Positions 3,435-34,400 of a stretch of 39,140 bases of DNA are shown here, piece after piece (positions within the stretch are counted from its first letter, which is position 1; the number at the start of each line of letters is the position of its first letter). The translations under genes and the position numbers were made by a program. The notes beneath the pieces are model-generated. The model had not been told where the DNA came from. It ran no database searches and saw only the letters and a program-made list of their open reading frames with translations. This stretch comes from a virus. The stretch is taken from IMG/VR virus record IMGVR_UViG_3300043431_000108, positions 1-39,140 of that record; one strand, given 5' to 3'.

Positions 3435-3580
3435 TTACTGCGTTCACTCACAAATACCGGTTGCATTGGATTTTCTTCAAACCACTTTAACTTATCCATG
3501 TAAGCCGCCATTTCTTCAAAGCGTAGTACTTTAATTATGGGTTCATCGCTCAATTTACCGCTTTCAAAATCGTATTTCAT
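3431..3580 (-). CDS. Small hypothetical protein, 49 aa
   Basis: The open frame starts with ATG ending at 3580, encodes MKYDFESGKLSDEPIIKVLR and MDKLKWFEENPMQPVF, and stops in an ATGA overlap with the next gene. It starts within a few bases of the end of the DUF3310 gene. It is charged, mostly helical and has no membrane segment. Tight spacing in the leftward operon supports it as real. Function unknown. Confidence 0.65.
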   Translation of the reverse strand: MKYDFESGKLSDEPIIKVLRFEEMAAYMDKLKWFEENPMQPVFVSERSK

Positions 3581-15129: not shown

Positions 15130-15305
15130 ATAAAGAAAAAAAATTTAATACTATAGAGTACTCAAATTGGCAATGCTATATGTTTGGCAACACGCCAGGG
15201 GGGCAAGGTATGGTTTATACCCCAAACAAAGGAAATGTGCCAAACATATTTATACGGTGGATGATGAAAGTCTGCTTTGCGTGTACTTGGGTGAAAAAAT
15301 ATTAA
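15126..15305 (+). CDS. Small hypothetical protein, 59 aa
   Basis: ATG at 15126 overlaps the preceding stop. The protein is MNKEKKFNTIEYSNWQCYMF, then GNTPGGQGMVYTPNKG, ending WMMKVCFACTWVKKY. The W-x-C-x-x-F-G-x-T-P and C-F-A-C parts suggest a small metal-binding or disulfide fold. A 62-residue frame at 15167-15355 runs in another phase over the same DNA and into the terminator, and is rejected. Function unknown. Confidence 0.68.
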   Translation: MNKEKKFNTIEYSNWQCYMFGNTPGGQGMVYTPNKGNVPNIFIRWMMKVCFACTWVKKY

Positions 15306-15309
15306 TCAG

Positions 15310-15354
15310 CAACACGGCCACCACTCATGCAGTTTATGGCGGGGTGGTTTTTTA
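15310..15354 (+). repeat. 45-bp terminator repeat, copy 1
   Basis: Exact match to 16191-16235, including the terminator stem, loop and T-run. In both copies ATGAAG follows within 4 bases. A third, diverged terminator with the same end (GGGGTGGTTTTTT, then ATGAAG) is at 15634-15667. This indicates duplication of a cassette boundary. Confidence 0.9.
15318..15353 (+). terminator. Intrinsic terminator T1
   Basis: CCACC (15318-15322) pairs with GGTGG (15343-15347), followed by six T. The surrounding 45 bases (15310-15354) are repeated exactly at 16191-16235. It closes the small-gene transcript and precedes structured RNA element 1. Confidence 0.75.
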
Positions 15355-15363
15355 GTTATGAAG

Positions 15364-15558
15364 CATGATAATTGTTAATCGTCTTGTGACGGAATAAGAA
15401 AGGCTCGCAATCTTTGCGATTATCATGACTTGATAGTTAATGTGCAGGCTGATGCACAGCTCAGATACCGTAGACCTTAGTTGTTACTTGAAAGACTTAG
15501 CTAACGCGACAGTAACTTTGGCGGCTACAAGCCGGAGATCAGCACCGGCAACTATCAA
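15364..15558 (+). ncRNA. Structured RNA element 1 (two domains, loop-loop contact)
   Basis: Domain I is closed by CATGATAAT/ATTATCATG (15364-15372, 15419-15427) and contains hairpins CGTC-TTGT-GACG (15380-15391) and CGCAA-TCT-TTGCG (15406-15418). Domain II is closed by TTGATAGTT/AACTATCAA (15430-15438, 15550-15558). Inside are hairpin GTGCA-[GGCTGA]-TGCAC (15442-15457), an inner stem GTTACT/AGTAAC (15483-15488, 15511-15516) and hairpin GCCGG-[AGATCAGCA]-CCGGC (15531-15549). GCTGA (15448-15452) and TCAGC (15539-15543) of the two loops are complementary. It lies between terminators T1 and T2. No long ORF lies in the unit. I do not recognise the RNA family. Confidence 0.7.
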
Positions 15559-15592
15559 AACAGGTATTTTGTTTTTCTTAGGAACAAAAATT

Positions 15593-15619
15593 ATGGTTTA
15601 TAATCTTGCCCGATTGTGA
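15593..15619 (+). CDS. Possible 8-residue leader peptide
   Basis: After element 1, a TTAGGAACAAAAATT ribosome site precedes ATG at 15593, encoding MVYNLARL and stop. Elements 2 and 3 are also followed by a ribosome site and a gene, so this may be the remnant of a lost gene or a leader peptide. The evidence is only the good ribosome site and the parallel layout. Confidence 0.25.
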   Translation: MVYNLARL

Positions 15620-15633
15620 ACCAGTAAAAACAG

Positions 15634-15667
15634 CCACCCCGCATTATTTCTTTCGGGGTGGTTTTTT
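15634..15667 (+). terminator. Intrinsic terminator T2
   Basis: CCACCCCG (15634-15641) and CGGGGTGG (15654-15661) form a perfect 8-bp stem with a 12-base loop, followed by six T (15662-15667). It is the strongest of the three tandem terminators and ends the element 1 unit. Confidence 0.9.
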
Positions 15668-15675
15668 AATTATGA

Positions 15676-15869
15676 AGTCATAGCAGACTGGCTCTAAGGT
15701 GGTCGCGGTCATCAACATGATGACAACTGACGCTCTATGGTGTAAGTCCTTCCCCTGTTATGACTTGATAGTTAATGCGTAGGCTGATACGCTAATTCGC
15801 GTTAAGACTGCCACAAGCCGTTAAATCGATAAGACGGTCAAGCCGGAGATCAGCACCGGTAACTATCAA
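15676..15869 (+). ncRNA. Structured RNA element 2 (same fold as element 1)
   Basis: Domain I is closed by AGTCATAGCAG/CTGTTATGACT (15676-15686, 15755-15765; one G-U pair) and contains GTCATCA-ACA-TGATGAC. Domain II is closed by TTGATAGTT/AACTATCAA (15765-15773, 15861-15869), identical to element 1. Its first hairpin is GCGTA-[GGCTGA]-TACGC (15777-15792), where two base pairs differ from element 1 with both sides changed. The last hairpin is GCCGG-[AGATCAGCA]-CCGGT (15842-15860). Loop complementarity GCTGA/TCAGC is kept. It lies between T2 and the DUF2829 gene, so it may be the leader of that gene or a separate RNA. Confidence 0.7.
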
Positions 15870-15919: not shown

Positions 15920-16189
15920 ATGAGTACATTTAATTTCGGTAAAGCACTTGAAGCATTAAAAGAAGGGCAAAAGGTTGCTCGTTCTGGTTGGAATGGTAAA
16001 GCTATGTTCTTGCTTTTAGCTAACAATATTACTTTTGAAACAAAGGCTAGCTTAGAGTGCGTTTCTCACCTATCTGGCAACTTAACTGGGGAATCAATCG
16101 TCATGAAAACAGCAGATGATAAATTTGTCGTTGGCTGGCTTGCAAGTCAGACGGATATGCTCGCAGAAGATTGGAAAATTGTAGAATAA
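15920..16189 (+). CDS. DUF2829 protein, Tad2-like (Thoeris anti-defence) candidate
   Basis: A 90-residue protein: FNFGKALEALKEGQKVARSG followed by WNGKAMFLLLA at the N-terminus and VVGWLASQTDMLAEDWKIVE at the C-terminus. This is the DUF2829 signature over the full length. Phage Tad2 proteins of this family bind the cyclic signal made by Thoeris defence systems and so prevent cell suicide. Whether this member has that activity is inferred from family only. A short AGGAAAAA site precedes the ATG. The gene sits alone between element 2 and terminator T3, like an accessory cassette. Confidence 0.85.
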   Translation: MSTFNFGKALEALKEGQKVARSGWNGKAMFLLLANNITFETKASLECVSHLSGNLTGESIVMKTADDKFVVGWLASQTDMLAEDWKIVE

Positions 16190-16190
16190 A

Positions 16191-16235
16191 CAACACGGCC
16201 ACCACTCATGCAGTTTATGGCGGGGTGGTTTTTTA
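16191..16235 (+). repeat. 45-bp terminator repeat, copy 2
   Basis: Exact match to 15310-15354. It starts two bases after the DUF2829 stop. The two copies flank elements 1 and 2 and the DUF2829 gene, so recombination between them would delete that whole 0.9-kb segment. Confidence 0.9.
16199..16234 (+). terminator. Intrinsic terminator T3
   Basis: CCACC (16199-16203) pairs with GGTGG (16224-16228), followed by six T (16229-16234). It ends the DUF2829 unit. The late genes follow, so read-through or a new promoter downstream is required. Confidence 0.75.
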
Positions 16236-16245
16236 ACCATGAAGA

Positions 16246-16345
16246 ATTAAACCCTAACGCGTGTCCTCTCGCACGAAAAAAAGACGGGAGCAGTTCTACC
16301 AGCTGTTTTGCTTGCAACGCTTCTTCGGCTGGGTTAGGGTTTAAT
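16246..16345 (+). ncRNA. Structured RNA element 3 (domain I only)
   Basis: ATTAAACCCTAAC (16246-16258) and GTTAGGGTTTAAT (16333-16345) form a perfect 13-bp stem enclosing 74 bases, which contain a small CGTG/CACG hairpin and other pairing. It starts after ATGAAG, as in elements 1 and 2. It is followed at 16347 by TTGATGGTTAAT, nearly the junction seen in the other two (TTGATAGTTAAT), but domain II is missing and replaced by the ribosome site of the gene at 16380. The 13-bp stem is very unlikely by chance. Function unknown. Confidence 0.65.
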
Positions 16346-16379
16346 CTTGATGGTTAATAAACAGGAACGGAAAATAATA

Positions 16380-24690: not shown

Positions 24691-27600
24691 ATGTCAGTCA
24701 CATCAACAACCATCGGCGGTGTCAACTGCTGGCAATTTAGCGGTGCAGTGACTCAGGCTGAAATCACAACTGCATGGTCTGCTTTGCTAGTCAATGGTGA
24801 GTACACACCCGCACGAGCTTTGTACTTTGATGACACTTGCGATATGCGAGCTGTGCAAGGTGGTTTTAACGTCAACATGACTATCGGCTCAAACTGCATC
24901 ATCTTGCACACAGGGCGCAACAAAGCAAATACAGTGCTGCGGTTTTGGAACATTCGATATAGTTCCCCACTAAGCGTTGGAGCGCGGAGTACTCGCGTGA
25001 TGGGCTGGAACGGTACTGGTTTTGTAACTTTGTCCAGTAGCGTCTCAAACGATGATGGTATTGGGATGTTCGGTGGTTCTCATACATACGCAGTAATAGG
25101 GAATCCTGGTGGTGGTGACCCTCGCTACTTGGATGAATGCGCTTTTGGTTTGCTGGGTGGCGGTGTGCAGATTTCATCGTCTGCGTTCACGGAACAGGAA
25201 TTACAACCCGACGTGCGCGGCATCAAAGAAATGAACGATGTGACGTTCACACGGTGCTTTGGTTTCCCTCAACTTACGGGACTGTTCACTCGTGCGATCA
25301 TGTGGCGCTGCTACCAGAACACGATGCACCCAAGTCAAAAGCCAATTCGGCTGTATGACAGAGCAAGCGTGTGCTACGTGGACAGCACCATGCGCAGAAA
25401 CAACGTGGCTGTGACTTCAAACTTGCTAGATGCTTACGGCTCAAGCTCAGGTTTCCCTGTTTGCTTTGCTGTCTACAACAACTGGCAGGATGAAAGCTGG
25501 TTCGGTGCGAGCAAGACCACAATGCCCACTGCCAACTGGAATACTGGCGACATCGGTTATGGCGCAGTGATGAAGAAACTGCAATTCGTTGGTGTTGGTG
25601 CTGCTGGCACTGTGAAGGTGTACGACAGTCGCAGCACAACAGCCGCACAACGATCTACATTTGTCGGAACATCCGCATTCGATTACATCGACTCAGGCAC
25701 AGGAACACAAACCGATGCAAACGGCAAAGTCTGGCTGTCAATCCGTGCATGTGAGATGAATGCATCTTCACAGATCACACGGTACACAGGGCAGAAATAC
25801 ACCTTCCAAGCCTTTGGTTATCGTGTCGCTGTGACAACTGTAGATGTAACCGCTGGTGGTGACGATAACACTTCACCTTATGCGCCAGTCGTGCCTACCG
25901 TTCAAACTGGCTTGTCCCGCACTCAAGCGGCCATCAATGCCGCAACTACCATCGACAACTTTCAGCAACTGCTTGAAGAACTGCATGTCTTGGCAATCGG
26001 TTTGTCTGGCTCTGCAAGCTATGCAGGCACGTACATAGGCAATCTGTTTGCGTTTGACGGTGGGCAACTAACCACAGCGTTTACAACTGTCAGTGTTGAC
26101 GCCACAGCATCAAGCAAGATCAGCTATGACAGCACAAACAATGCGATAACGATTAAGTCATCCACACTCGCTGCGAATGGCATTGTCGGTTCGTGGGTCA
26201 ACAGCACTGGAACGATTAGCACTACAAATGGTGCAACGATCACCGGTACTTTCTCCGACAGCACCGGCACTCGCATCACGATTCAAGAGCGCACAGGGAA
26301 ACTGCTTTCCACTTATGTGACGATCAACGGCACGCCCACAGGTGGCACGGTGGTTGACGGTACGCTCCGAGCTGGTTGGGTTCCTTTGTCATCGGCTCGC
26401 ACAATCACCGTGCAGCCCACAGATCAGATTAGGATTGCGTGCGCATATTACGGAAGCAAACCAGCCGTGTTCAACTTGCTTGGCAGTGAAATCGACAAGT
26501 TCACCCTGTCATTGGATGCTGAGCCTGCTGTGGACACGACTATTTCCACGACCACACGTGACGACATCGCAGCCAGCTTTTTCACAGTCCTGAATGGTCA
26601 GGTTCTTGAGGTCACGATTAACCGCACGATGGTTCAATACACACCCGTTGAAGTGATTGCAGGGCTTGACTATTACATCGTTGCGCGTGGAGATATCCTG
26701 TTTGGTTCGATGGCTCAAATCAATACCGCCAGTCTGTATGCACTGTCCAATGGCACGATTATAAGCTACTCACCAGCGTATAAAATCCGCATGGCCGACC
26801 TAGATGCAAACGGACAGCAGATTCTACCTAGCGCGACAGGTTACGAGATTCCGTTGGTTATCTACTACCAAGACCCGTCTACAGGCGCAAAATCCAAAAT
26901 GACCATCCTAAATGCCTATGGTGCATTTGTGGGGACAGCACCGTGGACGCAGACACAGGCGAGCATTGGAGACGCTGACCAGTTGGCCATTGCAGTAAAG
27001 ACCAAGGTGCAGATTGAGGCCAGTACTATTATCGCCAGAGAGACAACCGTGGCAACCCGCGCAAGTCAAGCCAGTGTTGATGCTTTGGGCACGCCCATGC
27101 AGGCATCAAGCTACACAGCACCAGATAACACAGGTATCGCAGCTATCAAGGCGAAGACTGACAACCTACCGGCACAGCCTGCTGCTGTAAGCTCCGCAAT
27201 GACTTTGACCGCTGCTTATGACGCTGCTAAGACTGCTGCAAGTCAGACAAGTGTCAACGCTATCCCAACAAACCCTCCAACAGTAGCGCAGATTAGACAA
27301 GAGATTGACACAAATAGCACTAAGCTAGATGTAGCAGTATCAACACGGGCATCACAAACAAGCGTTAATGCAATTCCTACTGCACCAACTGCGGCTCAAA
27401 ATGCAGCAGCAGTTCGCACTGAATTGACTACAGAGCTTGGACGTATTGATGTGGCAATAAGCACACGCAGCACACTCACAGCCGGTGCAGTTATGACATT
27501 AACTACGGCATACGATTCTGCAAAGACAGCAGCAAGTCAGGAAAGTGTTACAGCTTTGGGCGCACCTTTGCAGTCTGACGCATACACCACACCAGATAAT

Positions 27601-27750
27601 ACAAGCATTACAGCGATAAAAGATAAAGTAGACACGTTAACCAATGCGCCAACAGTTGGCGACATTGAAGCATCGACTATTTTAGCGAAAGAAACCACCG
27701 CGCAATCTGCTGTAAATAATGCTAAATTAGCCGCTGCATTGAGCGCATAA
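24691..27750 (+). CDS. Large fibre-like structural protein, 1019 aa
   Basis: Begins MSVTSTTIGGVNCWQFSGAV. The N-terminal 400 residues are beta-rich. Around 410-440 is a helical segment (TIDNFQQLLEELHVLAIGLS) typical of phage/prophage fibre-like proteins. Beta domains follow up to about 760. The last 250 residues are Ala/Thr-rich repeats, with TRASQxSVxAxP units, two TxPDN(T)xIxAIKxKxD units and LTxAYDxAKTAASQ units forming a coil stalk. It lies between the putative holins and the head-tail joining genes. Head fibre or large decoration protein is the best guess. Base composition of about the first 2.4 kb is clearly GC-richer than its neighbours. Confidence 0.65.
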   Translation: MSVTSTTIGGVNCWQFSGAVTQAEITTAWSALLVNGEYTPARALYFDDTCDMRAVQGGFNVNMTIGSNCIILHTGRNKANTVLRFWNIRYSSPLSVGARSTRVMGWNGTGFVTLSSSVSNDDGIGMFGGSHTYAVIGNPGGGDPRYLDECAFGLLGGGVQISSSAFTEQELQPDVRGIKEMNDVTFTRCFGFPQLTGLFTRAIMWRCYQNTMHPSQKPIRLYDRASVCYVDSTMRRNNVAVTSNLLDAYGSSSGFPVCFAVYNNWQDESWFGASKTTMPTANWNTGDIGYGAVMKKLQFVGVGAAGTVKVYDSRSTTAAQRSTFVGTSAFDYIDSGTGTQTDANGKVWLSIRACEMNASSQITRYTGQKYTFQAFGYRVAVTTVDVTAGGDDNTSPYAPVVPTVQTGLSRTQAAINAATTIDNFQQLLEELHVLAIGLSGSASYAGTYIGNLFAFDGGQLTTAFTTVSVDATASSKISYDSTNNAITIKSSTLAANGIVGSWVNSTGTISTTNGATITGTFSDSTGTRITIQERTGKLLSTYVTINGTPTGGTVVDGTLRAGWVPLSSARTITVQPTDQIRIACAYYGSKPAVFNLLGSEIDKFTLSLDAEPAVDTTISTTTRDDIAASFFTVLNGQVLEVTINRTMVQYTPVEVIAGLDYYIVARGDILFGSMAQINTASLYALSNGTIISYSPAYKIRMADLDANGQQILPSATGYEIPLVIYYQDPSTGAKSKMTILNAYGAFVGTAPWTQTQASIGDADQLAIAVKTKVQIEASTIIARETTVATRASQASVDALGTPMQASSYTAPDNTGIAAIKAKTDNLPAQPAAVSSAMTLTAAYDAAKTAASQTSVNAIPTNPPTVAQIRQEIDTNSTKLDVAVSTRASQTSVNAIPTAPTAAQNAAAVRTELTTELGRIDVAISTRSTLTAGAVMTLTTAYDSAKTAASQESVTALGAPLQSDAYTTPDNTSITAIKDKVDTLTNAPTVGDIEASTILAKETTAQSAVNNAKLAAALSA

Positions 27751-27762
27751 AGGAGAGCAAAC

Positions 27763-28290
27763 ATGACACTAATAGTTGAAGATGGGACAGGACTCGCAAA
27801 CGCTGAAAGTTATATCAGTGTGGACGATGCGAATCTTTATCACGCGAATCGAGCCAACACCGATTGGGAGGATTTGGACACAGACGTGAAAGAAAGCCTA
27901 CTGCGCAAAGCCACTGATTATATGGTGGCGCAGTATCGCTTAAAATGGGCAGGTTATCGCGTCAAGTCTACCCAATCGCTTGATTGGCCACGTCTTTACG
28001 TCCCTGAAGTAGATACGCTTTCGGCTAACATTTTTCCGCAGTATGTGGACTTTGCAAGCGTTCCTGTTATTGTTAAAAATTCTTGCGCTGAATTAGCATT
28101 AAAAGCCTATACAGCTATATTGATGCAAGACTTAACACAAGGCGTTATTCGTGAAAAAGTAGACGTTATCGAAGTTGAGTACGATAAGTTTTCACCGCAA
28201 CAAACACGCTACGAACAAATTGATTCAATGCTATCTGTTTTCTTTAAGCAACAGGGCAATGATATGTCGAGATCGTTGGTGAGAACATGA
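27763..28290 (+). CDS. Head-tail adaptor (DnaT-like/gp6-like) protein
   Basis: A 175-residue protein starting MTLIVEDGTGLANAESYISV, with DDANLYHANRANTDW, ESLLRKATDYMVAQYRLKWA and SLDWPR. This is the pattern of the phage DnaT-like family, which in gene order takes the place of head completion/adaptor proteins. An AAAGGAGAG ribosome site precedes it. It is first in a run of head-tail joining genes and overlaps the next by 4 bases. Confidence 0.8.
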   Translation: MTLIVEDGTGLANAESYISVDDANLYHANRANTDWEDLDTDVKESLLRKATDYMVAQYRLKWAGYRVKSTQSLDWPRLYVPEVDTLSANIFPQYVDFASVPVIVKNSCAELALKAYTAILMQDLTQGVIREKVDVIEVEYDKFSPQQTRYEQIDSMLSVFFKQQGNDMSRSLVRT

Positions 28291-28646
28291 CACTCGATAC
28301 ACGCGCCCGCGCTACAGCATATAAATTGTTAGATAAGTTTGGCAAATCAATCACGCTAACGTCAATTGTTGAGGGAAGTTATGACCCTGCAACGGGTGAT
28401 ATGGGTGCAGGTACAACAACAAGCACCACGCACACGGCAATTATTAAAGATTATAACGGCATTGATTTTATTAGTGGTGTTGTGCAAGCGGGTGATAGAA
28501 AAGTAATGATTGCAGCGTTAGGCACAACAACACCACAACCAGCAGATAAAGTAACAATTAACAGTGAAGTTTATCAAGTAATCGCGGTTCGTTATGTTTG
28601 GTCTGGTGAATTACCCGCGCTTTATGAATTACAGGTGAGAAAATGA
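28287..28646 (+). CDS. Head closure (head-tail stopper) protein
   Basis: A 119-residue protein with a helical N-terminus (TRARATAYKLLDKFGKSITL) and a beta body: YDPATGDMGAG, VQAGDRKVMIAALGTTTPQP, TINSEVYQVIAV. This is characteristic of SPP1 gp16/HK97-type stopper proteins that close the portal channel before tail joining. It has 4-base overlaps on both sides within the joining-gene run. Confidence 0.8.
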   Translation: MTLDTRARATAYKLLDKFGKSITLTSIVEGSYDPATGDMGAGTTTSTTHTAIIKDYNGIDFISGVVQAGDRKVMIAALGTTTPQPADKVTINSEVYQVIAVRYVWSGELPALYELQVRK

Positions 28647-28999
28647 CAGGCTCAATGTCGCAAATTGTTGCTCGTGCAAATGGTCATGTTGATGACAGAA
28701 TTAGAGCCGCAACTATTGGTATTTTCAAAGGCATTAGAAAAGATACGCCAGTTGATACAGGAAACGCGCGTAATAATTGGCAATGCACAATAGGTGCGCC
28801 TTTTGTTGGTAAAGATGCAAGTGGTTCAGACGAGCAAATATTACGAACCATTCCACGCAGAGCTGGAAGTGTTGTGTACTTAACAAACAACGTGCAATAC
28901 ATTCAGCCATTAGAATATGGGCATAGCACAAAATCACCTAATGGCATGGTAAGAATAAACGTTGCACGATTTGAGGGATTATTAAATGGCACTGGTTGA
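28643..28999 (+). CDS. HK97 gp10-like neck/tail completion protein
   Basis: A 118-residue protein. The N-terminal helix leads to GIRKDTPVDTGNARNNWQCT, the D-T-P-V-D-T-G-x-x-x-x-x-W signature of HK97 gp10/Mu-type neck proteins, and later NNVQYIQPLEYGHSTKSPNG is typical too. It joins tail to head in siphophages. The stop overlaps the tail terminator gene by 14 bases. Confidence 0.9.
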   Translation: MTGSMSQIVARANGHVDDRIRAATIGIFKGIRKDTPVDTGNARNNWQCTIGAPFVGKDASGSDEQILRTIPRRAGSVVYLTNNVQYIQPLEYGHSTKSPNGMVRINVARFEGLLNGTG

Positions 29000-29393
29000 A
29001 ATCCGAACAGCGTTAGAAACTAAACTGAACGCGCTTACGCCTACACTTGCAACAGCATGGGAAAGTGTGCCGTTTACACCTGTAGTTGGTACAGCCTATC
29101 AGCAAGTTAATTTGATGATTGCAGATACGTTAAACCCTACACTAGGCAGAGATCATTATCGCATTAAGGGATTTATGCAGGTTTTATTGTGTTATCCACC
29201 AAACGCAGGCGCAAAAACCGCATCAACACGCGCTGATTTACTGGTTAATCATTTTAAACGCGGCACGAGTTTAACAAGTGGCGGCATAACTGTTATTATT
29301 GACAAGACACCATCAATTGCACCGGCATTGATTGACGGGGTGCTTTATAAAATTCCGGTATCAATTTATTTTTCAGCAGATATTTACTCTTAA
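28986..29393 (+). CDS. Tail terminator protein (DUF4128-like)
   Basis: A 135-residue protein: EIRTALETKLNALTPTLATA, WESVPFTPVVGTAYQQVNL, then ADTLNPTLGRDHYRIKGFMQ and VLLCYPPNAG. This fits the phage tail terminator group (DUF4128) that caps the tail tube at its final length. It follows the gp10-like gene and precedes the tail tube gene, the standard order. Confidence 0.88.
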   Translation: MALVEIRTALETKLNALTPTLATAWESVPFTPVVGTAYQQVNLMIADTLNPTLGRDHYRIKGFMQVLLCYPPNAGAKTASTRADLLVNHFKRGTSLTSGGITVIIDKTPSIAPALIDGVLYKIPVSIYFSADIYS

Positions 29394-29404
29394 GAGGTTA
29401 CAAA

Positions 29405-30616
29405 ATGACAATTGCTCAAGGCGTTAAAAAAGTCGTATCGTACAAAAAACAAACTGGTTTAGGTTCTCCAGCTTCAGGCAGTGGAGGTCAGGAATTAAGA
29501 CGTGTGACCAGCACAATCAATTTAACAAAAGATACTTATCAATCAAATGAGATTCGCTCAGACCAGCAAATTGCTGATTTTAGACACGGATCAAAACAAG
29601 TTACAGGTACATTGAGCGCAGAGTTATCGGCTGGCACTTACAAAGATTTTTTACAGTCTGTATTGCGCAAAAACTTTGTGGCTATTTCTTCATTAACAGC
29701 AGCGGCTGTGACTATTGTTGCATCAACTGGTGTGATTACATTCCAAACAGGCAATCCATTAACTGGCGGTATTAAAATTGGTAATGTGGTTCGCATTACA
29801 GCCGGCAGCGTTAACGCGGCTAACTTGAATAAAAACTTGTTGGTCACAGGCGTTACAGCAAGCACATTGACTGTTAAAACCTTAAACGGTAGCGCATTGG
29901 CTGATAATGCTACTTCAGTTACTGGTGTAACGATTGCCATTCCCGGAAAATACACTTATGTGCCAGAAACATCACAAACACAAGATTACTATACAATTGA
30001 GCATTGGTTCTCAGACGTAGCGCAATCAGAGGTTTATCAAGACGTTGTTCAAACTAATGCACAGGTTAAAATTCCCGCAAATGGCATGGCAACCATTGAT
30101 TTCCCGTTAGTTGGTTTAAATGTGTCAACAGGCACATCACAAGTGTTAACTTCACCAACAGCAATTACAACGGGTGGTGTTACTGCTGGCGTTAACGGTT
30201 TGTTATTAGTTGCAGGCTCACCTGTTGCAATTGTTACTTCAATTGATTTTGATGTTAACGGTAATGTTGCAGTTGCTGATGCTGTAGTTGGTTCATTAAC
30301 ACGCCCAGACGTATTTCAAGGCACTGTAGGCGCAACTGGTACTTTTAGTGCTTACTTTACCGATGCCACATTCCGTGATTACTTCATTAACGAAACTGAA
30401 GTATCAATCGTGGTTGCGTTGACAACAGATAGCACTGCAACAGCAGACTTTGTTGTTTTCACTATGTCACGCGTTAAAGTTGGTGGTGCTGACGTTACTG
30501 ATGGCGCGTCTGGTTTAACTCGCACATTCCCATTCACTGCGTTAAAAAACACATCTGGTGGTGCAGCATTAGCAAATTTAGCGACAACAATCATGGTTCA
30601 AGATTCACTCGCTTAA
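29405..30616 (+). CDS. Major tail tube protein
   Basis: A 403-residue protein: KKQTGLGSPASGSGGQELRR, STINLTKDTYQSNEIRSDQQ and ADFRHGSKQVTGTLSAELSA are the start common to siphophage tail tube proteins. The body is beta-rich with inserted Ig-like segments (about 90-180). It polymerises into the tail tube around the tape measure. A strong terminator lies 16 bases downstream, matching the need for high expression of this gene relative to the next ones. Confidence 0.9.
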   Translation: MTIAQGVKKVVSYKKQTGLGSPASGSGGQELRRVTSTINLTKDTYQSNEIRSDQQIADFRHGSKQVTGTLSAELSAGTYKDFLQSVLRKNFVAISSLTAAAVTIVASTGVITFQTGNPLTGGIKIGNVVRITAGSVNAANLNKNLLVTGVTASTLTVKTLNGSALADNATSVTGVTIAIPGKYTYVPETSQTQDYYTIEHWFSDVAQSEVYQDVVQTNAQVKIPANGMATIDFPLVGLNVSTGTSQVLTSPTAITTGGVTAGVNGLLLVAGSPVAIVTSIDFDVNGNVAVADAVVGSLTRPDVFQGTVGATGTFSAYFTDATFRDYFINETEVSIVVALTTDSTATADFVVFTMSRVKVGGADVTDGASGLTRTFPFTALKNTSGGAALANLATTIMVQDSLA

Positions 30617-30631
30617 AAATAGTGCTACAAT

Positions 30632-30670
30632 TACCCACGCTTGTAATTTTGCAGGCGTGGGTATTTTTTT
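30632..30670 (+). terminator. Strong intrinsic terminator after tail tube gene
   Basis: TACCCACGC (30632-30640) pairs perfectly with GCGTGGGTA (30655-30663) over a 14-base loop, followed by seven T (30664-30670). It probably lowers transcription into the chaperone and tape measure genes. Confidence 0.92.
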
Positions 30671-30694
30671 ATAAATCAACAGGAACATACGAAC

Positions 30695-31102
30695 ATGAGC
30701 AAAGAAAATAAAGGTTTATCATTAGCAGATCTCGATTTAGTCACAGCGTCGGAAAACGCTTACGAATTTGAATATCTCAGACCAGACGGCAGCGACACAG
30801 GCGTATTTATTACGGTACTTGGTTCACAAGCACCAAAGGTGCAGGACTGGGTTCGCAAAACGTTAAACCGCAGAAAAGCACAGGACACATTAGCGGCTAA
30901 ACGCGGCAAAGAAATTGAGCGCACAATCGAAGATGATGAACAATTCGGTATTGATGCAGCAGCAATTCGTATTGTCGCATGGCGTGGAATCAATGAAGAA
31001 TATACACATGAAAATGCGTTGATTTTGATGGAACGTAATAATGAATTACGCGACCAAGTCTTTGAGGCAAGTAATAACTTGGGAAACTTCAAAAAGGCTT
31101 AA
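30695..31102 (+). CDS. Tail assembly chaperone, short form (G-like)
   Basis: A 135-residue protein starting MSKENKGLSLADLDLVTASE, with ENAYEFEYLRPDGSDTGVFI. It is acidic and helical in its second half. It sits between the tail tube and tape measure genes, where lambda has G. Near its 3' end is the heptamer GGGAAAC (31081-31087), at which a fraction of ribosomes shift to -1 to make the longer G-T protein. Confidence 0.88.
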   Translation: MSKENKGLSLADLDLVTASENAYEFEYLRPDGSDTGVFITVLGSQAPKVQDWVRKTLNRRKAQDTLAAKRGKEIERTIEDDEQFGIDAAAIRIVAWRGINEEYTHENALILMERNNELRDQVFEASNNLGNFKKA

Positions 31103-31467
31103 TCGATGATGTCATTGCGTTTGGTACGCGAGAATTTGAACTAGACGTAAAAAACGACAATGGCGGAAGTTTACGCGATGAAGCTCAAGCGATTTTATCA
31201 GCTGGTTACGACATACCAGAAGAATATAAATCGCTTGCAACGCCTGAAAACTATTTCCATTGCTGGGTGTGGTTTAACGATTTAAGTCGTTCACGTTCTA
31301 GCAATGGATTTGGTAAAAATCCAATTAGTTTTAGTGAGATAGACGCATGGTCAATACTCACACACACTGAATTAAGTCCGCTTGAAATACGTTGTATCAT
31401 GGGTCTTGATAGTGCATATCTTAAAATTCAAGCAGAGCAAATCGCAAAACGGAGCAAACAAAAATGA
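30695..31467 (+). CDS. Tail assembly chaperone, frameshifted fusion (G-T-like)
   Basis: Read as 30695-31087 joined to 31087-31467 by a -1 shift, giving about 257 residues. The second part begins LQKGLIDDVIAFGTREFELD and ends QIAKRSKQK. It is open from the shift site to 31467 and has no good start codon or ribosome site of its own. The T part includes WFNDLSRSRS and SEIDAWSILTHTELSPLE. In lambda-like phages the G and G-T proteins coat the tape measure during tail assembly. Confidence 0.85.
31081..31087 (+). other. Programmed -1 ribosomal frameshift site GGGAAAC
   Basis: In the zero frame it is read TTG GGA AAC, so the heptamer has the X-XXY-YYZ form (G GGA AAC), close to the lambda G-T site (G GGA AAG). 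The zero frame ends 13 bases later (31100-31102), and the -1 frame is open to 31467. Confidence 0.88.
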
Positions 31468-34400
31468 CAACAGATACCTATTCCATTCAAGTCGCAGTCG
31501 ATTCGACCAGTGCAGTAACAGCCACGCGCAATTTAACTGCAATGGAGCAAGCAACGGGCAGAAGTGAACGTGCTTTGTTTAGTTTAGGTAACATGGCAAA
31601 AGCAGCAAGCGCGGCTTTGCTTGGCATTGGATTTAAAACCGTAATTAGTGAAATGGCATCGTTTGAAACGAAAATGCTTCAATTAAAATCGTTAACCGAT
31701 GCCACCACTCAACAAATGAAAGCAATGGAAAAACAAGCGCGTGAACTTGGCGCGACCACTGCGTTTTCAGCACAACAAGCGGCAGAGGCGCAAGGCGTTT
31801 TAGCAGCAGCAGGTTTAAAAACTAATGAAATATTAACTGCAACACCAAAAGTTTTACAACTTGCAGCAGCAGGCAGTTTAGAGCTTTCAAGAGCAGCAGA
31901 AATTTCAACAGAAACCATGAATGGTTTAGGTTTAAGTTTAAAAGATTTAGGACGTATCAATGACGTTTTAGCAAAAGCCGCAGCCGATTCAAGTACAAGC
32001 GTTGGTCAAATTGGCGATGCTATGAAAACAGCAGCACCAATAGCTAGGCTTTATAAGATTAGCTTAGAAGAAGTTGCTGCAATGCTAGAAATAGCAGCAG
32101 CAAATGGATTAAAAGGTGCTGAAGCTGGAAATAATTTAAAAACAATATTTAAAGCGTTAACAAACGATCAAAAAGATAATGTTGAAATTTTAGCTAAACA
32201 TAATTTAAAACTTAAAGACTTAAGCATTGAAACTATTGGTGCGGCAAAAGTTTTAGATAATTTAAGTAAGGCACATTTATCAGCAACAGAGGCAACAGTA
32301 ATTTATGGCGGTGATGCAACAGCGTTAGGCGCAATTTTAGCTAGTAATTCAGAAAAATTTAAAGAAAATACAAAAGATTTAGAAAAAGCCAATGGCATGG
32401 CTAAAAAAATGTCTGACGATTTAAATCAAGGATTAGCAAAAGCATTTGATTCGCTTAAAGGAACAATTAGTGAAGCAGCATTGCAATTAGGTGATTCTGG
32501 ATTAAAAGGCGCATTGACTGATGTTATACAACAAGCAACAGGCGTTATTGCAATTTATGAAGGCATGGGCGATAAATTTGCAGAATCGAATAACTATACA
32601 AAAGAACAATACGACAATTTAAAAAATGTAGCAGACGAATTAAAAATTGTTGCAGGTGCGGCTGGTGGGATTGCAAGTTTAACTGCGGTTATTTGGGGTG
32701 CTAACGCGGCTATGGTAGCGTTTAATATTGCCACCCGTGCTAATCCTTTAATTATGGGCGCAACAGTTGTAGCGGCAGCGGCAGGCGCAACATTTGCAAA
32801 GATAGCAGATAATCAAAGCACAATTGATAAACAAATCGAAACAGCAGAAAAACGCATTGCAGCAATGGAAAAATATGGCTTACCAAATTTAATTGGTACG
32901 GCAGTTGGTTTTGATACTGAAAAAGAACGCACGAAATTAACTGCGTTAAAACAATTTAAAGAGGAACAGCTTGCAGCAACAAAAGCAACTATTGATGCAA
33001 CCGCAAAAACTGAAAAACACACTGAAGCAGCTAAAACAAATACAGCCGCAACAGTAGATTCAGCAAGCAAAACAAAAACGGCATCTGAAGCAAAAAAAGA
33101 GGCAGCGCAAGCAAGCAAAGATTTAGCCGAGGCAGAACGTTATTTTAATGAACAACTTAAGGAACAGGTTACAGCCGCAGAAAACGCAGGAAAGTTATTT
33201 GCAGCACAGCAACAAACTAAACTTGCTGGCATCGATGCAGAAATAAAAGCGATTCAAGAAAAATCGGCTATTGATTACGAGAACGCAAAAACATTTGAAT
33301 CAAAAAGCGCAATTATCGCATCATCTCAAGCAGCCACTAATGCGCTATTGGCAAAAGAAAAAGAATTGCGCGATGCGGTTATCAATCAAGAACTTTCAAC
33401 TATTGATGCAAAAATAGCGTCAGACAATGCACAGCTTGACCATGCGAAAGAATATAACTTAACGCTGGCGGAACAATTGCGATTAAAAACCGATATTTCA
33501 ACGCTGCAAGTTGATAAACAAGTATTGAGCGAAACAGCAAAACAAGCAGATATTAAAGCTGCTAGTGATGCGCAATCGAAAGCAAGTCAAGACCATTTAG
33601 CCTATATTAAAGCTATTGATGATGCACAGACAGCCGCTAACACAGCCGCTACTGCGCAAATGGAAATATTAACATCTAATCTTGATGCGGCTAAAGAGGC
33701 TGCCACAGGGTTAGCCGATGCGTTTGGCAGTGTAGGCGGTGCAGTAGGTGGTTTGGGCATTGCAATGGCATCTTATGAGAAGTCACAAGCTGCAATTTCT
33801 GACGGGTTACAAAATCAATTATTTGAGATTCAAAAACTTAATGATGGCAAAGGCGACCAAGTTAAAAAAGACAAGGCTATTTCTGACGCAAATCAAAAGC
33901 AATCACAATTGCAGATTAAGTCATACGGTGATATGGCGGCAGCGGCTCAAGGCTTCTTTAAGAAAGGCACAACGGGTTATCAAGTATTAGGCGCAGCCAC
34001 TAAAGTTTTTCGAGCGTTTGAGATGGTTCAATCTGCTATGTCTATGTCAAAACAAATTGCAGATATGGGAAAAACTGTTGCCATGTATTTATTTGGTGAA
34101 ACCGCTAAAACAACTGCAAAAGTAACTTCATCAACAGTTGGAATTGCAGCGGATACGGCTGGAGCTGGAGCGTCTGCAACTAAAGCTGTTGCTGATGCGT
34201 CACAAGGCGACCCATACACAGGGTTAGCGCGTGGTGCAATGATGCTTGCATTTATGGTCGCCATTGGTGCTATGGCTGGTGGTGGAGGTGGAGGTGCTGA
34301 AGTAGCACCAATGACAGGCGCAGATTACATAACAAAAGAAACTGATAAATATAAATCGTCACAAGGCGGAACGGTTTTGGGCAGTGATGTTATGTCTAAC

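Follow-up and report, generated by a model that had tools for sequence, protein, structure and literature searches.

Two RNA elements of a phage contig belong to a widespread family of structured phage RNAs with a constant frame and replaceable arms

Results

Organisation of the locus

The window analysed here is the entire contig IMGVR_UViG_3300043431_000108, which is 39,140 bases long. Its RNA region is bordered by the packaging genes on one side and, on the other, by a helicase-like gene whose product has Toprim and AAA domains. Here, a terminator-like repeat, a first unit, a terminator, a second unit, a Tad2-like gene and a second terminator-like repeat follow each other on the + strand, succeeded by a third structured unit of a different kind, a small gene, an HNH gene and the terminase. 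The first two units, termed copy 1 (15364-15558) and copy 2 (15675-15869), consist of an upstream domain I and a frame composed of an outer stem, two hairpins (H1 and H2) and a variable middle:

15318-15353, + strand: terminator-like hairpin (CCACC..GGTGG, long loop) with T-run TTTTTT, before copy 1
15364-15427, + strand: copy 1, domain I, long stem CATGATAAT../..ATTATCATG with T-arm-like inner hairpin AAAGGCTCGCAATCTTT
15430-15438, + strand: copy 1, outer stem, 5' strand, TTGATAGTT
15441-15458, + strand: copy 1, hairpin H1, loop GGCTGA (15447-15452), putative kissing letters GCTGA (15448-15452)
15459-15530, + strand: copy 1, variable middle, 72 nt
15531-15549, + strand: copy 1, hairpin H2, loop AGATCAGCA (15536-15544), putative kissing letters TCAGC (15539-15543)
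15550-15558, + strand: copy 1, outer stem, 3' strand, AACTATCAA, directly abutting H2
15634-15667, + strand: intrinsic terminator between copies 1 and 2, CCACCCCG/CGGGGTGG, T6
15675-15766, + strand: copy 2, domain I, AAGTCATAGCAG (15675-15686) with CTGTTATGACTT (15755-15766), its final two bases shared with the outer stem
15765-15773, + strand: copy 2, outer stem, 5' strand, TTGATAGTT
15777-15792, + strand: copy 2, hairpin H1, GCGTA/TACGC, loop GGCTGA (15782-15787)
15793-15841, + strand: copy 2, variable middle, 49 nt
15842-15860, + strand: copy 2, hairpin H2, loop AGATCAGCA (15847-15855), putative kissing letters TCAGC (15850-15854)
15861-15869, + strand: copy 2, outer stem, 3' strand, AACTATCAA
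15920-16189, + strand: Tad2-like gene (Thoeris anti-defence 2; PF11195, E = 9e-25), a neighbour outside the RNA
16236-16350, + strand: third structured unit, domain-I-like only, ATTAAACCCTAAC/GTTAGGGTTTAAT, following the same terminator-like repeat

The hairpin at 15318-15353 was missed by a simple terminator scan due to its long loop. It is part of a 63-nt repeat (15304-15366) that recurs with 90% identity at 16185-16247, each version carrying a terminator-like hairpin and a T-run, and the two repeats flank the stretch from copy 1 to the Tad2-like gene, which starts 50 nt 3' of copy 2. The RNA units and the anti-defence gene thus look like exchangeable cassettes between the repeats. The third unit, which resembles a domain I without a domain II, folds more strongly than any other part of the region (16236-16360, z -5.63) and contains an inverted repeat of 13 bp without mismatches. 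The small protein encoded at 16380-16604 matches phrog_2044, labelled as RNA polymerase beta subunit (E 3e-24), and the start of its gene is similar in Staphylococcus phages. In a promoter scan, the number of sites was not above chance.

The original prediction had described two elements with a shared fold, and all sequences it named are present at their places in both copies. The stem of H1 is GTGCA/TGCAC in one case and GCGTA/TACGC in the other, with two base pairs changed on both sides, and the stems of domain I differ in sequence while pairing in each copy. Folding of single sequences is unremarkable for copy 1 (z -1.38, with 18 of 200 shuffles folding equally well) and modest for copy 2 (z -2.44), whose H1 has a probability of only 0.01 in the unconstrained ensemble and is absent from the unconstrained single-sequence fold. 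The two copies alone are therefore weak evidence for a structure, and the proof comes from their relatives. An additional pairing is possible between the outer stem's 5' strand (ATAGTT) and bases located just 5' of domain I (AATTAT or AGTTAT; 15354-15363 with 15430-15438 and 15668-15674 with 15768-15773), and the two domains could thus exchange partners.

The copies are members of a large RNA family

Copies 1 and 2 are members of a large family of structured phage RNAs that has no name so far; phages of Proteobacteria contain at least 141 distinct relatives. A scan of viral contigs with the 17 letters of the last hairpin yielded at least 120 stretches, nearly all of which show the same frame, and a scan by H1 instead led to the same frame, with H2 loops varying mostly outside UCAG[C/U]. 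This constant frame comprises an outer stem of 6 bp or more, the dinucleotide AA, H1 with the loop GGCUGA, a variable middle and H2 with the loop AGAUCAGCA, which abuts the outer stem. The letters of the outer stem are GATAGTT/AACTATC in the window and GTGGTG/CACCAC, GGTCTG/CAGACC, GATTGGATG/CATCCAATC or AGAAGCGG/CCGCTTCT elsewhere. The 141 distinct units were gathered with a structural descriptor that requires pairing of the outer stem and that had no match in 0.58 Mb of shuffled loci; their middles extend over 12-177 nt, with a median of 73. Frequently, a second stem-closed domain (domain I) is found 5' of the frame, and some phages contain several tandem units. A covariance model built from 57 copies (R1) recovers both copies of the window with 78.8 and 74.6 bits, both being rows of its training set, on a background of up to about 17 bits.

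Covariation and complementarity of the hairpin loops

The assumed selection on RNA structure is borne out by the relatives. Among 57 diverse copies, 98.1% of cells pair, compared to 86.8% after shuffling and at most 47% after sliding, every helix covaries, and 16 of 23 pairs show changes on both sides. Since alignment A1 and most of A2 were picked by the descriptor requiring pairing, the fairer count for the outer stem is provided by 82 copies found by the letters of H1 and H2 only, in which outer pairs 1-7 are Watson-Crick in 93-96%. Within pairs 1-6 of this set, 11 G-U stand against a single A-C, an excess that favours an RNA read from the given strand.

The helix between the loops of H1 and H2 is paired in 98.8% of cases across 34 aligned sequences, with a covariation score of 0.283 compared to 0.130 after shuffling and at most 0.019 after sliding. 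Alternative loops were sought by loop-free scanning near known units and by scans for altered H2 loops, and the alternative pairs come from loci picked by H2 letters only. They include GUCGA/UCGAC (loci L392, L410 and L361), GGUGA/UCACC (L045, L531, L568, L581 and L602) and GCCGA/UCGGC (L447), with GCUGA facing UCGGC through a wobble in five others; near-misses were found in L419, L475, L477 and L481. These compensatory changes support the suggestion that GCTGA and TCAGC can kiss and argue for a probable kissing interaction between H1 and H2 throughout the family.

Search for known RNA families

The original prediction could not assign the RNA to a known family, and searches of the window against Rfam 15 at gathering and permissive thresholds gave no credible family match, and C4 antisense RNA was likewise without an Rfam match in the window. 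Weak matches to RNAI, snoR41, mir-190, PyrR and a rydB fragment on H2 (13.7 bits) were discarded as chance or terminator matches. A literature search covering open-licence papers found no match to a phage RNA with these features.

Distribution

The original prediction had noted two copies of an element that is in fact very widespread: it occurs in hundreds of proteobacterial phages and prophages, among them P1 and numerous prophages of E. coli. Annotated carriers include P1, HK620, HK629, mEp460, PAJU2, Alcaligenes CASP1, swi2, Bas79 and Ackermannviridae. In HK620, the unit is flanked by qut and tQ, and in HK629 it is placed between the pR' region and the holin, while in mEp460 and related E. 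coli prophages it lies between the repressor and yfdP. In P1, the covariance model identifies two copies (65636-65766 and 66065-66162) adjoining tRNA-Asn and tRNA-Thr. The stretch between tRNA-Thr and tciA (L124:2817-3710, corresponding to about 65554-66447 of P1) holds an array of about four units, two of them family members, one STnc100-like and one degenerate.

Of 5426 complete E. coli genomes, 1522 contain a whole or partial match to a 251-nt version from E. coli, and in 423 of these the match covers at least 80% of this version; at the best 15 of the matches, no annotated feature underlies it. A 19-letter core pattern was detected in 5 of 399 species genomes of Pseudomonadota, two of which are already known carriers, and in none of 300 Bacillota genomes, and the covariance model finds no copy in lambda or the CPS-53 region of K-12. 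Matches of the 17-mer H2 pattern in genome contigs are mostly chance events in GC-rich coding DNA, with few real ones (e.g. L178, L187, L201 and L239).

Variable arms and resemblance to tRNA

An upstream domain I with a closing stem is common, the stem being, for example, GGTAAGAGCATT/AGTGCTCTTACC in enterobacterial phages and GCATGGGGATTG/CAGTCCCCAGCCG in others. The interior of domain I and the middle of domain II vary independently between phages, as illustrated by swi2 and HK620, which have the middle in common and differ in domain I, and by P1 and mEp460, where the same is observed. Hairpins with a T-loop (TTCRANN) occur seven times in the middles, compared to an expectation of 0.2, and 12 times upstream, compared to 0.6, where at least one resides inside a genuine tRNA gene. 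They are confined to a minority, and most arms contain no T-arm. Degenerate tRNA folds were obtained with ARAGORN at 90% in seven units, one of them on the opposite strand, and in none of the shuffled sequences. The sole unit reaching the full ARAGORN score has a tRNA-Pro inside its variable middle (L106, 581-666), a call without an Rfam tRNA match. For the copies of the window, both Rfam (RF00005) and ARAGORN were without a tRNA match, as was the Rfam tRNA model on the T-arm-bearing domain I of loci L294 and L248; the T-arm of L294 alone matches a sub-segment of tmRNA. Some domain I units hold GGGCTCATAACCC, which we take to be the anticodon arm of initiator tRNA, or its variants GGGCCCATAACCC and GGGGTCATATCCC; segments of this type are found at L252:3820-3860, L034:6890-6960 and L124:3250-3290 and 3540-3580.

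Gene context

Long ORFs flank 79 units on either side. Of these units, 41 point in the same direction as both ORFs, 13 are antisense to both and 15 and 10 are mixed, and in 23 the downstream ORF resides on the opposite strand. No Pfam family appears more than three times among 119 downstream proteins, and the RNA is thus not the leader of one gene. In swi2, a unit, a tRNA-Met and a terminator are opposed to the tail operon in what looks like a transcription unit of its own, and the unit of Bas79 is free-standing and antisense to tail genes, with a terminator. An intrinsic terminator is found within 200 nt downstream of 31 of the 141 units (compared to 8 on the other strand and 0-3 in shuffles), leaving 110 units without a nearby terminator. 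A tRNA gene is found no more than 600 nt away from 16 of 127 units and in all 16 cases shares the strand of the unit, compared to 4.2% of random places in the same loci that were not matched for intergenic location; this proximity is about three times chance and concerns about one unit in eight. Directly 3' of one unit, we observed a sub-threshold match to isrJ (L301:2009-2083; 34.5 bits with a cut-off of 37).

Three candidate roles were dropped: a homing intron, as no intron family matched, a Tad2 leader, as among the 119 downstream proteins Tad2 is found only beside the copies of the window, and an attachment site, as units occupy many genome positions.

Discussion

The constant frame of the family, its exchangeable arms, the presence of several units in one phage and the company of tRNA genes fit an RNA that acts in trans and is read as a tRNA shape. 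We thus tentatively favour the view that the units are trans-acting non-coding RNAs of phages whose tRNA-like shape would occupy a host protein that reads the shape of tRNA. In such a mechanism, the frame would hold a replaceable domain I and middle, some with T-arm hairpins of tRNA, and the RNA might, for instance, serve as a decoy, countering the cleavage of tRNA or other forms of defence or regulation that are directed at it. Specificity would reside in the variable arms, as the fast-changing part in an arms race with the host. Action in trans, which among the functions offered by the original prediction fits best, is supported by free-standing units antisense to tail genes and the lack of a single downstream gene family. 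Several points speak against this view: the resemblance to tRNA is topological, most arms contain no T-arm, the proximity to tRNA genes concerns about one unit in eight, the 41 of 79 units placed between co-directional genes would also suit an mRNA leader, and STnc100 and PasD, to which the family bears a likeness outlined below, have been classed as Hfq-type sRNAs (PMC13192938), a class that points to base pairing instead.

The latter consideration leads to the best-surviving alternative, a regulatory sRNA of the STnc100/PasD kind, where the frame would act as stabiliser and the arms as seeds that pair with host or phage mRNAs aided by Hfq or ProQ. The frame shared with STnc100, the tandem sub-threshold matches in P1, L060 and L093, the detected expression of STnc100 (PMC5331693), the binding of the related PasD to Hfq (PMC13192938) and the terminators downstream of 31 of 141 units are all consistent with this possibility. 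However, the strongest conservation is found in two paired kissing loops rather than in a single-stranded seed, 110 units are without a nearby terminator, and arms that are unrelated between phages imply no common target, which together make such an sRNA a somewhat unlikely explanation.

Less likely is a cis-acting element of a phage transcript, either a put-like antiterminator or an mRNA leader with a controlling or stabilising effect on the gene that follows; an antiterminator and a cis leader had both been offered by the original prediction. Units do occupy leader regions: those of mEp460-like prophages and PAJU2 separate the repressor from the next operon, and that of HK620 separates qut from tQ. 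Both neighbours run in the same direction as the unit in 41 of 79 cases, and in the window copy 2 lies 50 nt 5' of Tad2 with terminator-like hairpins ahead of the copies. A general cis leader is nevertheless hard to reconcile with the 23 of 79 cases in which the downstream gene is encoded on the other strand, the absence of a common downstream gene and the units of swi2 and Bas79, which oppose tail genes and have a terminator at their end. An antiterminator is disfavoured by the intrinsic terminators within 200 nt downstream of 31 of 141 units, and the covariance model has no match in positions 25000-33000 of HK022, a stretch not confirmed to contain both put sites. Moreover, the unit of HK620 precedes tQ, and in lambdoid late control constitutive antitermination at this place would bypass Q. 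We thus consider a role in cis improbable. It appears very unlikely that the units are processing or stability elements of phage tRNA and moron transcripts, whose stems would set cuts by RNase III, RNase P or RNase E and protect neighbouring ends, since the same-strand tRNA genes found up to 600 nt away from 16 of 127 units and the small genes often found nearby are outweighed by the majority of units without a nearby tRNA and by kissing loops that keep pairing with several sets of letters, which a mere cleavage stem would not need.

The presence of the family in P1, HK620 and other classic phages renders its function directly testable in laboratory strains. A wider proposal, which we regard as doubtful, views the family as a general RNA platform of phages, in which a tRNA-elbow-like scaffold with an exchangeable kissing-loop lock would carry recombining arms as baits against tRNA-directed host defences. 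The same doubt attaches to its corollary that some of these baits might be copied from arms of host tRNAs. A structured RNA that is so common and combines a kissing contact, backed by compensatory changes, with a tRNA-like layout would constitute a new tool in the interplay between phage and host.

Comparison with known systems

The likeness to tRNA concerns the order of helices, the two-base linker following the outer stem, the last arm abutting this stem, with zero nucleotides at the junction between H2 and the outer stem, and the putative contact between first and last loops. By analogy, the frame might fold like a tRNA elbow, with the outer stem and H2 corresponding to the stack of acceptor and T-arm and H1 to the D-arm, and the RNA would have a coaxial stack and an L shape. 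In contrast to tRNA, the putative kiss consists of five Watson-Crick pairs instead of contacts between D- and T-loops, there is no CCA, the outer stem is longer and the middle is arbitrary. The resemblance is topological and does not make tRNAs of the units.

In HK022, the put antiterminator is a phage leader RNA with two hairpins in the PL and PR regions, whereas units of the family are often free-standing.

Of the known families, STnc100 (RF02076) comes closest; it is also phage-borne, and its positions 31-147 share the frame of the family, including an outer stem GGUG/CACC, an AA linker, a first hairpin, a long variable middle and a GC last hairpin abutting the outer stem. Its sub-threshold matches are found in tandem with family units in P1 (66326-66446), L060 and L093, although none of 19 records exceeds the gathering score of 47 bits, the best reaching 38. 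STnc100 differs in the letters of loops and stems (H2 being CCGGG AGGCA CCCGG) and shows no clear 5-bp kiss, with GCC/GGC in L093 and none in L318 or L004. Since the RF02076 model has no match in the window at E up to 10 and our covariance model has none on the STnc100-like unit of P1, STnc100 is a sister by architecture and not the family itself. It is a prophage sRNA of Gammaproteobacteria, reported to be expressed and Northern-positive in EDL933 (PMC5331693), and the Hfq-bound PasD is structurally related to it (PMC13192938).

Finally, the RNAs rnaC and rnaD of T4 (species 1 and 2) are small stable RNAs that adjoin the phage tRNA cluster. They are distinguished from the family by the lack of an H1/H2 pair, and the covariance model scores at best 6 bits in their region with filters off, at a place other than rnaC or rnaD. 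At its end, inside the closing stem, rnaC (L614:1909-2047) contains a T-arm hairpin (CCGGGTTCGAATCCCGG), as do some domain I units; that of rnaC is a perfect T-arm of tRNA. Within the wider proposal made above, the T4 RNAs could be an independent version of the bait strategy. The family described here may help to explain stable RNAs in the tRNA clusters of phages.
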